A stretch of DNA of 64,000 nucleotides, from the NCBI GenBank assembly GCA_020723085.1, contig DYJN01000002.1:67601-131600 (forward strand), read 5' to 3'. Below the pieces are notes generated by a model. The model made no database searches and was not told where the DNA came from. It was given only the letters and a program-made list of their open reading frames with translations. The DNA comes from Arcobacter sp. (lineage in GTDB: Bacteria > Acidobacteriota > Terriglobia > Bryobacterales > Bryobacteraceae). The position numbers and the translations under genes are program-made. Below are positions 49,174-57,683 of the stretch, piece by piece (position 1 is the stretch's first letter; each line of letters opens with the position of its first letter).

Positions 49174-51282
49174 TCAGCGGAAGCCGTCGGCGCGCATCAC
49201 GTCGGCGTTGGACGGATCCAGGCGGACCACGAGCATCGAGCGCCGGTCCGGCGAAAGCGAGAACGGGCCGATCCCGATGGGCAGGATCGGCTCGGGATAG
49301 TCAGCCACCAGGCGCGGAGAGCGGCCTTTCCAGTCCAGGTGGAAGACCGACTGCAACACAGGGGCCTTGGGCCGGACGCCGAGATAGTAAATCCCGTGCT
49401 CGTCCAGCGCCCAGCAGGAGGTGCAGTAGGGCACGAGCCCGGACAGCACCCGCTCCACTTCGCCTGTACTCACATCGACCCGCGAAAGCGTGGTGTCGGC
49501 GGGCTCGCGCACGAAGTAGACGTAGCGCCCGTCCGGCGAAACATCCAGGGAAAGCGCCCGCACCGGCGTCACGATGCCGGCCGCGCCGCCTGCGGCGGCA
49601 TATCTCAGGATGGCTCCCGCCGCCGCGGCGTAAATCACCCGGCCATCTGGCGAAAAGACGGGATGGACGCCGCGCGCGCCGAATGGCCGGACGGTCCAGC
49701 TTCCTCCGTCCTCCTCTGCGATGAACATCTCCGTTGTGGCGGCGTCATTGAAGACCAGCCGCCGCCCGTCCGGCGACCAGCGCGGCACGGAAGGCCGCCC
49801 TTTGCCCGAGGTCGCCTGCACGGGATTGCCACCCTCCGCGTCGCACACCCAGATCTGTTCGTCCCCTGTCCGGTCCGAGCGGAAGGCGATCCGCTTTCCG
49901 TCCGGGGAGTATTGCGGTGACGCATCCTGTCCGGAGGAAGCGGCGATCCGTTTCCACGCCACAGGAGGACCGAAAGAGAGCCGCCAGACATTCGGGTCGT
50001 TCTGGATGAGCGAGTAGACAAGCCGCGCCTGGCGGCGGGAGTAAGTGAACTGTATAGGAAACTCGCCATAGATTCCGGTGGGCGAAGGCTCCTTGCCTGG
50101 CGCCATCCGCCAGATGCGGTAGGAACCGCCGCGGGACGAGCCGGCCAGCAATCCCTCCGCCGACCAGTCCACGCCCGTCACCATGCGCGAGTCCGAGGTC
50201 CACTGCCGGGGCGCGCCGCCGGACACGGGCACGGTGAAGACCTCCTGATAGCTGCGGTGGAACGCCCGGATGAACGCGACCGTCTTGCCGTCCGGCGAAA
50301 ACCGCGGGGCCACATCGCCGATGATCATCTCTTCCGGCTGCGTCAGACGCCGCTTCTCGCCGGTGTCGAGGCGAATCAGGAAAATGGACAGCGGCTGGCT
50401 CAGCGAGGGCGAGTCATCCACCGCCAGCGTCGTGCCGTCGGGCGACCAATCCAGGTGGTAATAGCCGAGCCCGAAGCGGGTTGGAAGGACCGGCGCCACA
50501 ACGCGGGGTTCGCCGCCCGCGGCAGGCAGAATCACAATGTCGCCGGATGAGGCGCCGAAGCGCAGGCAGGCGATCTGCCGTCCGTCGGGCGACCAGACGG
50601 GGCTCGACCACGAATAGCCAGGCGTGGAGAGTTGCCGGGGGGCGCCTTCGCTGAAGCGTTGGAGCCAGATGCTCGGCAGCGCCTGCTCGCTTTCCTGCCA
50701 GACAAAGGCAACAGCGGATCCGTCTGGAGAGATCGCCGGCTGAAACTCCTTGCCCGCCAGCCGCGTTACCGGCGTCACTGTCACGGCGGGCTTTGGATCT
50801 TCCCGCCGGATGATCACGAGCAGCAGAACAACCACGCCCAACAGCAGGATCATTCCGGCAGCCCCCGTCCAACGCCTCCTTGGCGCCTGCGCCGGAACAT
50901 CCGCCGCTTCAGGCAATGGCTCGGCCACGGCAGACGCGGTGGCAGCTGCCCCTTCTGAACGCTCCGCTGTTACCGGGCCAAGCAGCCGGTAGCCGCGCCC
51001 GGGGAAGGTTTCAATATACGCGGGCTCGCCCGGCGACGCTCCAAGCGCCTTGCGGATGACGGCGATGTTCTGCGCCAGATTCGCCTCGTCCACCACGCGG
51101 TCCGGCCAGACCGCCGCCATGATCTCTTCTTTTGTGGCGACCTCCGGGGACCGGGCGGCAAGGACGACAAGGGTTTCCACCGCCTTCCGGGTCAGATGCA
51201 GAGGCTGCTCGTTCCGGAATATGACCTTGGCGGCGGCATCCAGCCGGAAGGACCCGAACCTGTAAACCGGATGCGTTTCCAA
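49174..51282 (-). CDS. Membrane-bound one-component regulator: OmpR-type winged helix, one TM helix and TolB-like beta-propeller
   Basis: A 702-residue protein. Residues 1-105 form an OmpR/PhoB-type DNA-binding domain (YRFGSFRLDAAAKVIFRNEQ, then VIRKALGASPGEPAYIETFPGRGYRLLG in its core ETFPGRGYRL). A linker leads to one membrane helix at about 137-161 (GMILLLGVVVLLLVIIRR). The periplasmic part carries about eight PD40/WD40-like repeats (FSPDGKTVAF, YSPDGKRIAFRSDRTGDEQI, VSPDGRYVYFV). The layout is CadC/ToxR-like, with a propeller as sensor. The start is TTG. The gene is divergent from the GH106/TonB-receptor operon, which suggests it controls that operon. Confidence 0.9.
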   Translation of the reverse strand: METHPVYRFGSFRLDAAAKVIFRNEQPLHLTRKAVETLVVLAARSPEVATKEEIMAAVWPDRVVDEANLAQNIAVIRKALGASPGEPAYIETFPGRGYRLLGPVTAERSEGAAATASAVAEPLPEAADVPAQAPRRRWTGAAGMILLLGVVVLLLVIIRREDPKPAVTVTPVTRLAGKEFQPAISPDGSAVAFVWQESEQALPSIWLQRFSEGAPRQLSTPGYSWSSPVWSPDGRQIACLRFGASSGDIVILPAAGGEPRVVAPVLPTRFGLGYYHLDWSPDGTTLAVDDSPSLSQPLSIFLIRLDTGEKRRLTQPEEMIIGDVAPRFSPDGKTVAFIRAFHRSYQEVFTVPVSGGAPRQWTSDSRMVTGVDWSAEGLLAGSSRGGSYRIWRMAPGKEPSPTGIYGEFPIQFTYSRRQARLVYSLIQNDPNVWRLSFGPPVAWKRIAASSGQDASPQYSPDGKRIAFRSDRTGDEQIWVCDAEGGNPVQATSGKGRPSVPRWSPDGRRLVFNDAATTEMFIAEEDGGSWTVRPFGARGVHPVFSPDGRVIYAAAAGAILRYAAAGGAAGIVTPVRALSLDVSPDGRYVYFVREPADTTLSRVDVSTGEVERVLSGLVPYCTSCWALDEHGIYYLGVRPKAPVLQSVFHLDWKGRSPRLVADYPEPILPIGIGPFSLSPDRRSMLVVRLDPSNADVMRADGFR

Positions 51283-51297
51283 GACGCTACACCGCCA

Positions 51298-51326
51298 ATT
51301 TTAGGAATTTCTTAGAAATTTCTCAC
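51298..51326 (-). promoter_or_regulatory. Predicted promoter and operator of the winged-helix/TolB gene
   Basis: On the minus strand GTGAGA (51321-51326) and TAAAAT (51298-51303) are separated by exactly 17 bases. That spacer holds the 15-bp palindrome AATTTCT-T-AGAAATT (51306-51320). On the plus strand AATTTCT occurs at 51306 and again at 51317, an 11-bp direct repeat as used by PhoB/OmpR-type domains. Confidence 0.55.
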
Positions 51327-51346
51327 TGCCCCATCATTGCACGAAA

Positions 51347-57100: not shown

Positions 57101-57620
57101 CGCCATCTGGGAGACCCCCTTCGGCAGGGGACGCCGCTGGGGTTCCTCGCTGCCGTTTGCCGCCGACCTCTTCCTGGGCGGCTGGCAGCTCTCCGGCGTC
57201 TACACGTTCCAGAGCGGCGCCCCGATCAACTTCGGCAACATCATCTTCCTTGGCGACCTGAAGGACATCGAACTGCCGCGCGACCAGCGCGCCGTGGAGC
57301 GCTGGTTCAACACCGACGCCGGATTCGAGAAGCGCGCCGCCTACCAGCTCGACCGGAACGTCCGCTGGTTCCCGCCCCGCTTCAGCTTCCTCCGGGCGCA
57401 TGAGACAAACAATTTCGATCTCGCGCTCACCAAGAACACGCGGCTGTTCAACGAAAAGCTGAACGTGCAATTCAAGGCGGAGTTCCTCAACGCCATGAAC
57501 CACCCGATGTTCCCGGCGCCCAGCACGACGGTGACGTCCTCACAGTTCGGCCAGGCGATCGCCTCCACGCAGGCGAACTACCCCCGCCGGACGCAATTGA
57601 CGGCGAAGTTCCTCTTCTGA
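54117..57620 (+). CDS. Oar-like TonB-dependent outer membrane receptor
   Basis: A 1167-residue outer-membrane protein with signal peptide (MKSRIVSIISLCFLLALAGM). Residues about 24-105 form a carboxypeptidase-regulatory-like domain (GAITGVVTDPSGAVVPNASV). The plug follows (YTMDGTRANRSDVTIDGAVS, VQEFKVQTATFDAQFGQTEG), then a long beta-barrel ending in LTAKFLF with the terminal Phe used for outer-membrane insertion. Such receptors are strongly expanded in Acidobacteriota; ligands are mostly unknown. The partner GH106 enzyme suggests oligosaccharides. AGAGG lies 7 bases before the ATG. A strong terminator follows. Confidence 0.93.
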   Translation: MKSRIVSIISLCFLLALAGMAQDPRGAITGVVTDPSGAVVPNASVEVINKAMGTRQTLKTNDAGVYNALYLIPGRYRIAVEIAGFKKAIRDDVEVRVDDRIAVNIQLEVGGTEQSITVTGETPLLSTETASTGTVVDSKRVTELPIPHGNPYFLIGLAGGVSFTRNARLDRPFEPTHIVGYTMDGTRANRSDVTIDGAVSTATANAGEVIASYVPPADIVQEFKVQTATFDAQFGQTEGGVTNISIKSGGNEFHGTGYYTNMTPSLFANDFFANRNRIPLADFYYHRYGSSLGGPITIPKLYDGRNRTFFQWGMEGIKEGRPRNNGTPTVPTEAMKSGDFSALLAVSSSFQIYNPWTRRPASGGRFQSDPFPGNIIPPALFNPISKKVLDTYYPKPLQAGNPDGTNNYLRPELMEEAEYLSNTIRVDHNLTQANRLYARYSWYDRTSTYNNYFNNLSTGQSFWFISKAGVIDDVWTLSPTMVLNARYGYNRFIRRSDGNPEAKGFDLTTLGFPASYNNALSPDLRRFPRFDISGYQGTGHAGENRPNDTHNVTAVLTKMFSRHSVKSGMEFRSYRETATFFGNEQTGRFIFDATYTRGPYNNSPTAPGSRGQSVAAFLLGIPTSSSYVAVRDSYAEQSVSWSWFVQDDWKVNSRLTLNVGLRWEYDGPLTERFNRSVRRFDPSYTQPFEAAARDAYALNPTPEVPASQFTTRGGLTFAGFNGEPRTLYESPKNNFMPRFGFAYQIDPKTVMRGGYGMFFGFLGQRRGDVIQTGFSRNTPFIPTLDGYTFINTLSNPFPEGILTPVGTGQGYQTYVGNSISFFNEKPLRPSMQRWQFGFQRTIGAGYVAELNYVGNRGTHIEIGRNYNATPIEYLSHSLLRDNGRINYLSQNLPNPFRGLMPAGATSSFTGANMARERLLRPYPHFDSVNASRFDGYSWYHALQASIEKRFSKGYMIGASYTFSKFMQATETLVTNAPRPVEVISDLDRPHRLVVNAIWETPFGRGRRWGSSLPFAADLFLGGWQLSGVYTFQSGAPINFGNIIFLGDLKDIELPRDQRAVERWFNTDAGFEKRAAYQLDRNVRWFPPRFSFLRAHETNNFDLALTKNTRLFNEKLNVQFKAEFLNAMNHPMFPAPSTTVTSSQFGQAIASTQANYPRRTQLTAKFLF

Positions 57621-57642
57621 CCGCAAGCGAACCTGTGGTTTG

Positions 57643-57683
57643 CCCCGCCCCGGCAGGAGCCGTCCGGGGCGGGGCCTTTTTTT
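57643..57683 (+). terminator. Strong intrinsic terminator after the TonB-receptor gene
   Basis: A perfect 11-bp stem (CCCCGCCCCGG, 57643-57653, with CCGGGGCGGGG, 57664-57674), a 10-base loop and, after CC, seven T residues (57677-57683). It closes the GH106/receptor operon. Confidence 0.9.

Follow-up and report, generated by a model that had tools for sequence, protein, structure and literature searches.

A predicted membrane regulator with paired propellers and its candidate operator beside a TonB receptor operon of Acidobacteriota

In the SusR/SusC-SusD starch locus a membrane regulator lies beside an outer-membrane importer and a glycosidase. Acidobacteriota occur in large numbers in many soils and carry a wealth of TonB receptors, and to our knowledge it is largely unknown how they choose polymers for uptake. 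Regulators of the CadC/ToxR family carry an N-terminal OmpR-type winged helix, a single transmembrane (TM) helix and a periplasmic sensor, and the published half-site of CadC is TTAxxxxT (PMC5430869). Most HTCS of Bacteroidetes contain predicted propeller pairs that bind oligosaccharides, in a chain of two 7-bladed Reg_prop propellers, YYY, a histidine kinase and a receiver (PMC3243724). Since these paired propellers sense oligosaccharides, the view of the initial annotation that the propeller is uncharacterised as a sensor domain could not be upheld.

We analyzed a window of 64,000 nucleotides from a bacterium of the phylum Acidobacteriota, in which the gene of a membrane regulator (REG) is divergent from those of a GH106 enzyme and an Oar-type TonB receptor; a terminator closes the operon (Table 1). 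The parts claimed earlier, i.e. winged helix, membrane helix, TolB-like propeller, GH106, Oar-type receptor and terminator, were all confirmed in place by Pfam, AlphaFold2 and fold. The operon has two genes, with 10 bp between the enzyme stop and the receptor ATG, and is followed by an asparagine synthase gene. Directly 3' of the receptor stop the terminator hairpin is followed by seven T, and this stretch folds with −35.5 kcal/mol (z −2.6); a terminator consensus scan alone gave a count in this region no higher than in shuffles. As in the Sus locus, a membrane regulator adjoins an outer-membrane importer and a glycosidase, but the receptor is of the Oar type, SusD is missing and the regulator has different domains. 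The operon consists of GH106 and an Oar-type receptor and lacks the SusC/SusD pair of a SusCD-type PUL.

Table 1. Features of the REG locus, with positions in the window.
Feature	Position	Strand	Evidence
REG, membrane one-component regulator	49174..51282	-	Pfam, PDB sequence matches TolB and CadC, AlphaFold2 model, TolB superposition
Candidate operator, tandem 11-bp half-sites TTAGGAATTTC + TTAGAAATTTC	51301..51322	+	Conservation, period test, genome scan, CadC half-site fit
Candidate operon promoter: -35 TTGCAC (51337-51342), 17 bp, -10 GATGTT (51360-51365)	51337..51365	+	
Conserved block YAGTNTAKCGCA (this locus: CAGTTTACCGTG)	51376..51387	+	Footprint alignment
ACTGATATRTCTGT element, GH106 gene leader	51410..51423	+	Intergenic sequences of GH106-containing loci
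GH106 enzyme, secreted, probable alpha-L-rhamnosidase	51464..54106	+	Pfam, BT0986 5MQM alignment
Oar-type TonB-dependent receptor, CarboxypepD_reg + OMP_b-brl_4	54117..57620	+	Pfam, co-inheritance with REG
Intrinsic terminator, GC hairpin + T tail	57642..57683	+	Sequence and fold

REG matches Trans_reg_C (aa 26-100, E 1e-15) and PD40 (E 2e-34) in Pfam, and is built of a CadC/OmpR-type winged helix (aa 6-107), a linker (109-140), one TM helix and two propellers. The hydrophobic helix is seen at aa 140-158 in the sequence, with RRR just before it, and at 141-159 in the AlphaFold2 model, and 40 relatives have one such helix in the corresponding position. In the model (mean pLDDT 86) the linker is loose and beyond the TM helix there are beta strands only. 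The part behind the helix would lie in the periplasm. There, two six-bladed TolB-like propellers are predicted (about aa 166-425 and 430-700); of the single TolB-like propeller described earlier, the likeness to TolB was borne out by PD40 and by superposition, while the number had to be changed to two. Among winged helices in the PDB, that of CadC is the best match (5JU7, E 2e-11), with response regulators ranking behind it, and a Pfam profile search found no receiver domain. REG thus has the winged-helix and single-TM features of ToxR/CadC-type membrane one-component regulators, but differs from these in its double six-bladed TolB/PD40 propeller and in its candidate target, a TonB receptor/glycosidase operon.

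Three further systems resemble REG in the propeller part. On TolB of Tol-Pal the first propeller (aa 166-418) superposes with Z 25.9 and an rmsd of 2.5 over 236 residues; the score of REG with the NCBIfam TolB profile is 154.7, far under the cut-off of 343, and unlike in TolB the propeller is fused to a TM helix and a DNA-binding domain, with a second propeller added. Acidobacterial membrane Ser/Thr kinases with PD40 likewise carry a double propeller behind one TM helix, as in the protein L040 (946 aa) with 38% identity over REG 135-702, but have a cytoplasmic kinase in place of the DNA-binding domain (motifs read by eye). HTCS share with REG the periplasmic propeller pair, the adjoining receptor and glycosidases and the proposed oligosaccharide sensing. 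However, REG has PD40 repeats, and since Pfam gave only PD40-type propeller and Trans_reg_C matches, with no Reg_prop, YYY or kinase, it lacks the HTCS combination of Reg_prop, YYY, a histidine kinase and a receiver within a single protein. HTCS propeller structures were not among the 50 best superpositions shown for the REG model, which excludes nothing. REG is best described as a kinase-free, one-protein HTCS analogue on the ToxR/CadC plan, and it offers a minimal comparison for kinase-free transmembrane signalling by paired propellers. An open-access full-text literature search found no paper linking this architecture with TonB receptors, which is weak evidence of absence.

The enzyme matches the GH106 profile PF17132 (Pfam, E 7e-61), and a start at 51464, which gives the signal peptide MHSSWRAWILAAMPALCAGG, is preferable to 51416. 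Its residues E226/E349 and D223/S224 align with E461/E593 and D458/S459 of BT0986 (5MQM), whose roles are taken from PMC6828813, and the aligned catalytic acid, base and calcium-ligand residues are invariant in 8 relatives. This points to E226 as the catalytic acid and E349 as the base, and to a secreted enzyme that is probably an alpha-L-rhamnosidase. The receptor has the order expected of the Oar type, CarboxypepD_reg (PF13620) and then an OMP_b-brl_4 barrel (PF25183, E 4e-195); an STN-like signalling domain was not found by Pfam.

Conservation of the divergent arrangement in relatives had been set beforehand as the test on which the proposal could fail, and the proposal passed it, since the same layout recurs in many genera of the family. 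Within the proposed unit of regulator, GH106 and receptor, the regulator and the receptor are conserved, whereas GH106 is one of several cargoes, with arabinofuranosidase or sulfatases in its place elsewhere; the term GH106 switch is therefore too narrow. A tree of 61 regulators contains one clade of 28 (support 99), in which the receptor adjoins REG in 24 members; in three (L084, L090, L093) the contig stops after GH106, and one (L095) has neither receptor nor GH106 in view. Outside the clade only 4 of 33 regulators adjoin a receptor, and on the tree the adjacency takes 4 changes, whereas shuffles need 20.7 and none of 500 came down to that number. In a second clade, from another family (L199, L202, L206, L208), the regulator is again divergent from an Oar-type receptor, and in the only locus tested GH30 comes next. 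By these comparisons regulator and receptor are the stable, co-inherited pair, and GH106 is exchangeable cargo. Some regulators of the same architecture lie opposite a gene for a small secreted HExxH protein rather than a receptor gene, and consequently glycan sensing cannot be a property of the whole family.

Between the divergent genes lies a tandem 11-bp repeat, and 20 of 21 orthologous loci have kept it. Direct repeats exceeded shuffles at period 11 only (z about 11), and the element is single copy in the 4.19 Mb genome when searched at up to 3 mismatches. Both half-sites match that of CadC, but they are arranged head-to-tail at 11 bp vs. head-to-head in CadC. We therefore regard the repeat as a conserved OmpR/CadC-type candidate DNA target of REG. 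In 18 of 20 loci the TTG of the -35 element keeps a distance of exactly 25 bp to where the second half-site begins. The -10 element, a weak one, has the form NANNNT in most loci of the footprint alignment. We infer that TTGCAC-17-GATGTT is the operon promoter. As the operator is situated 19-40 bp from the REG start codon, REG probably controls itself too. The conserved block YAGTNTAKCGCA may belong to the promoter of REG or to that of the operon; a REG promoter suggested by a sigma-70 scan (GTGAGA-17-TAAAAT, minus strand) is not conserved and was discarded.

The ACTGATATRTCTGT element is also single copy in the genome (up to 1 mismatch), and because neither it nor the operator (up to 3 mismatches) has further copies, there is no sign of a wide regulon in this genome. 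No operator was found in GH106 loci without REG (L117-L136). Tandem TNAG at 11 bp accompanies 15 of the 36 regulators of this architecture whose recognition helix reads N[LVI]xQ, and 7 of the 47 others (shuffles about 3%), so that one exact operator for all regulators of this architecture holds only partly.

Some loci depart from the arrangement. In L089 the receptor is found on the 3' side of REG, convergent, and the sequence directly upstream of the receptor contains a second operator, in which the 25 bp to TTG are preserved. This site, left out of motif training, is the best in the locus with 31.1 bits, compared to a background maximum of 14.3 bits over 339,312 positions. Near REG, L087 and L089 have kept the operator and the conserved promoter-like block with nothing divergent seen there, and part of the footprint may therefore serve REG's own transcription. 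L193, from another class, has REG and operator and no receptor, and in L095 the operator was not found.

Taken together, the domains, the conserved operator with its fixed spacing, the co-inheritance of regulator and receptor and the operator at the relocated receptor, all read from sequence, lead us to favor, with reasonable confidence, a ToxR/CadC-type switch that senses a receptor-linked signal and activates the GH106/receptor operon via the tandem half-sites. The double propeller would read a signal linked to the receptor's import, most likely an oligosaccharide, and REG would dimerise or oligomerise and bind the two half-sites through its cytoplasmic winged helices, at a centre some 60 bp upstream of where the operon presumably starts. 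Binding would activate transcription of GH106 and receptor; the receptor would import, the secreted enzyme would remove rhamnose, and the cycle would be reinforced. REG would thus probably sense a sugar compound and directly switch on the neighbouring genes of the receptor and the rhamnose-cleaving enzyme.

We consider it unlikely that REG senses the state of the receptor itself and not a free saccharide, by a FecA/FecR-like logic in which the propeller attaches to the receptor on its periplasmic side (plug or CarboxypepD_reg) and is released or engaged on substrate transport. The invariance of the receptor rather than the enzyme as partner would agree with this, as would the own clade that the partner receptors of the orthologous set form, the binding of peptides and proteins by TolB propellers (Pal, colicin TolB box; PDB titles) and the same idea proposed for HTCS and SusC (PMC3243724). 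However, the receptor has no detected STN-like domain, related regulators occur without a receptor (L193, the HExxH-partner group), and the HTCS propeller sensors tested bound oligosaccharides directly (PMC3243724).

Repression by REG of the operon and of itself, with the operator over the REG promoter region and a mainly autoregulatory footprint, appears quite improbable. The short distance to the REG start codon and the operators kept near REG in L087, L089 and L193 speak for it, but the relocated receptor of L089 also has an operator in front with the promoter spacing preserved, and the promoter hexamers are weak. In addition, activators of REG's kind commonly bind about 60 bp upstream of the start, which is where the half-sites are centred. 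Chance neighbourhood of the Oar-type receptors and PD40 proteins, both numerous in this bacterial family, was rejected as very improbable, as the adjacency is clustered on the tree far beyond shuffles, arose again in another family and regulator clade, and is accompanied by an operator at fixed spacing.

The activating switch could, tentatively, belong to an undescribed general class of acidobacterial uptake loci, in which one membrane protein with a winged helix and a double TolB-like propeller does the work of an entire HTCS or sigma/anti-sigma system, is dedicated to one TonB receptor via an 11-bp tandem operator, was joined to receptors on several independent occasions and sees its enzymes swapped as cargo; the propeller may then read the receptor itself and not a free ligand. 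The locus offers a testable switch, made up of a regulator, a 22-bp candidate operator and a putative target promoter, together with an enzyme as a clue to the substrate. As units of this kind come with GH106, arabinofuranosidase or sulfatase genes, and in the other clade with GH30, they could help to predict substrates of many uncharacterised receptors. The FAD oxidoreductase gene (47241-49166) is missing beside REG in several close relatives and was discarded as a fixed part of the locus; in L085 an alpha-L-fucosidase-type gene takes its place.

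The initial annotation had claimed three genes for this locus, the membrane regulator (REG), a GH106-type enzyme (GH106) and an Oar-type TonB-dependent receptor, and gene calls and domain profiles recovered all of them where it had placed them. The genome holding the window is 4.19 Mb, and its closest named relatives are metagenome-assembled Bryobacteraceae (Acidobacteriota) genomes. The oxidoreductase gene next to REG was found in only some relatives, and in L085 an alpha-L-fucosidase-like gene is present instead.

Features of the REG locus in the window
Feature	Position	Strand or orientation	Description
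Oxidoreductase	47241-49166	convergent with REG	FAD-dependent, with DUF7402 domain
REG	49174-51282	minus	Trans_reg_C winged helix and PD40 repeats
Candidate operator	51301-51322	between REG and GH106	tandem repeat TTAGGAATTTC-TTAGAAATTTC
Conserved block	51376-51387	between promoter and leader	YAGTNTAKCGCA
Leader element	51410-51423	in the leader	ACTGATATRTCTGT
GH106	best start 51464	divergent from REG	signal peptide begins at 51464
Receptor	54117-57620	divergent from REG	10 bp behind GH106
Terminator-like hairpin	behind receptor		GC-rich, then seven T

To follow the gene order we examined 150 genomes of the family and took REG orthologues (46-85% identity) from 20 of them, giving 21 loci with the window; the relatives' genes were called by a simple ORF rule. 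GH106 is divergent from REG in 13/21 loci, with the receptor visible behind it in 9 of them, and in the others (L084, L088, L090, L093) the contig ends before any receptor. Many of these genomes are fragmented, and contig ends conceal some neighbours. The receptor is directly divergent from REG in four loci (L082, L091, L092, L096), is accompanied by an arabinofuranosidase in one (L094), and lies on the other side of REG in two (L087, L089); one locus (L095) has no such neighbour visible. More distant regulators (L097-L100 and L104, 35-39% identity) are divergent from a receptor followed by a sulfatase, directly or one gene later, a layout assigned by eye in L100 and L104. Of the 61 regulators placed in a quick tree, 28 form a clade with support 99 that contains nearly all receptor neighbours: the receptor is visible in 24 of these, inferred in 3 where the contig breaks off after GH106, and not seen in 1, and regulator and receptor are tandem rather than divergent in L101 and L103. 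Most regulators beyond this clade face other genes, and the receptor label changes 4 times on the tree compared to 20.7 times in shuffles. A second quick tree places the receptors that accompany the REG orthologues in a clade of their own as well. Taken together, neighbour counts, regulator tree and receptor clade argue that the stable unit is regulator plus receptor, with the enzyme as cargo. Checked for conservation, the regulator/GH106/receptor order holds for the regulator-receptor pair, whereas GH106 is exchangeable. A further regulator clade, unrelated to the first and from a different family of the class (L199, L202, L206, L208), likewise faces an Oar-type receptor, with a GH30 gene behind it in L199.

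The enzyme has a GH106 match and can be aligned to BT0986 (5MQM), whose published catalytic residues are E461 (acid) and E593 (base), with D458 and S459 as calcium ligands (PMC6828813). The counterparts E226, E349, D223 and S224 are invariant across eight aligned GH106 sequences, and these catalytic and calcium residues make activity on rhamnosides likely.

By sequence, the nearest solved structure to the REG winged helix is CadC, with response regulators ranking behind. In the AlphaFold2 model (mean pLDDT 86) residues 6-107 form the winged helix and 141-159 a TM helix, with a disordered linker between them, and the ~540 residues that follow are beta strands. TolB superposes on the first half (166-418; Z 25.9, rmsd 2.5 over 236 residues) and a propeller of the agrin/LRP4 structure on the second (430-680). 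Two-propeller proteins (LRP6) align with 165-680, but the different setting of the two halves makes the rmsd high. From these superpositions, two six-bladed propellers most likely make up the sensor. As there is one TM helix and DNA has to be reached, we infer a cytoplasmic winged helix with the propellers outside. Among the 20 orthologues mean majority identity is 77% in the winged helix (89% in the recognition helix), 66% and 71% in the propellers and 28% in the linker, and by the search used REG is the sole protein with the full architecture in its genome.

REG has the same plan as ToxR/CadC, and its proposed job resembles that of SusR and the hybrid two-component systems (HTCS). The initial annotation regarded propeller sensing as uncharacterised, which is contradicted by HTCS: the large sensors of these systems are mostly predicted to be paired seven-bladed propellers with YYY, and oligosaccharide binding has been seen with purified ones (PMC3243724). 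In contrast to these, a domain profile search showed REG to be without Reg_prop, YYY or kinase, and REG is a kinase-free one-protein analogue of HTCS, not a member. Among open-access full texts we found no paper on the REG-type combination, a weak negative.

Alignment of the divergent regions revealed the tandem half-sites of the candidate operator. In 20 such regions direct repeats exceeded shuffles at period 11 only (8.10/11 matches vs 5.70, z about 11), with periods 12-22 at background level. The operator is single-copy in the genome with three mismatches allowed, a second listed match being this site read from the opposite strand. Both half-sites fit the CadC consensus TTAxxxxT, although they are in direct order and those of CadC are head-to-head (PMC5430869). 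When 3.3 Mb was searched, both strands counted, with a weight matrix scored with each locus left out, sites >18 bits occurred only before regulators of the REG family, plus one elsewhere; the background maximum was 14.3 bits over 339,312 positions. In 18/20 loci the distance from the second half-site to the start of a -35-like TTG is exactly 25 bp and, assuming a -10 at 51360-51365, transcription would start near 51372 with the operator centred near -60.

The one exceptional site (L089:4191, 31.1 bits), outside the training set of the matrix, is the sole one away from a regulator start. It is directly upstream of the relocated receptor, which in L089 lies beyond the 3' end of REG and is not divergent, and TTG is again found at 25 bp; REG of this locus has its own site too (23.3 bits). 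In L095, where no receptor is visible, the matrix scan detected no operator. The relocated operator, together with the locus having neither, indicates at the sequence level that operator and receptor are linked beyond mere neighbourhood.

REG probably works by operator-based recruitment of polymerase to the GH106-receptor promoter. In such a scheme REG would be anchored in the inner membrane with its propellers reading a periplasmic signal, a dimer or oligomer on both half-sites would recruit the polymerase, and through the same operator REG could control its own gene. The signal may be an oligosaccharide or the receptor itself; a constant receptor with changing enzymes is compatible with either.

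Some further observations concern the promoter region and related regulators. The leader element occurs in GH106-containing operons of relatives, was not seen in loci without GH106 and is single-copy in the window's genome; perhaps it is a second regulatory or RNA element. Even L087 and L089, which have no divergent gene behind it, retain the conserved block. The receptor-linked clade has a member in a different class of the phylum (L193:7859-10117), which lacks a receptor, has neighbours resembling an ATPase and a TIR-like protein, and retains the operator (25.8 bits). A 92-aa REG remnant divergent from a GH106 gene (L135:8110-8382) is perhaps a decaying regulator.

Many family matches to REG span residues 130-702 only, and in L040:1492-4332 the double propeller of the REG type, again preceded by one TM helix, is part of a protein with Ser/Thr kinase motifs; kinases and DNA-binding regulators seem to exchange this sensor. 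Winged helix-TM-PD40 regulators in L106, L107, L108, L111, L112 and L114, and likewise in L140, L143, L146, L150, L154 and L157, have a divergent neighbour encoding a secreted protein of about 150-240 aa. An HExxH motif is present in those partners whose full sequence was read, and these regulators possibly form a second, protease-linked switch class. Two related regulators (L115, L116) are divergent from an aspartyl protease-like protein, recognized by eye only from its LIDTGA motif.
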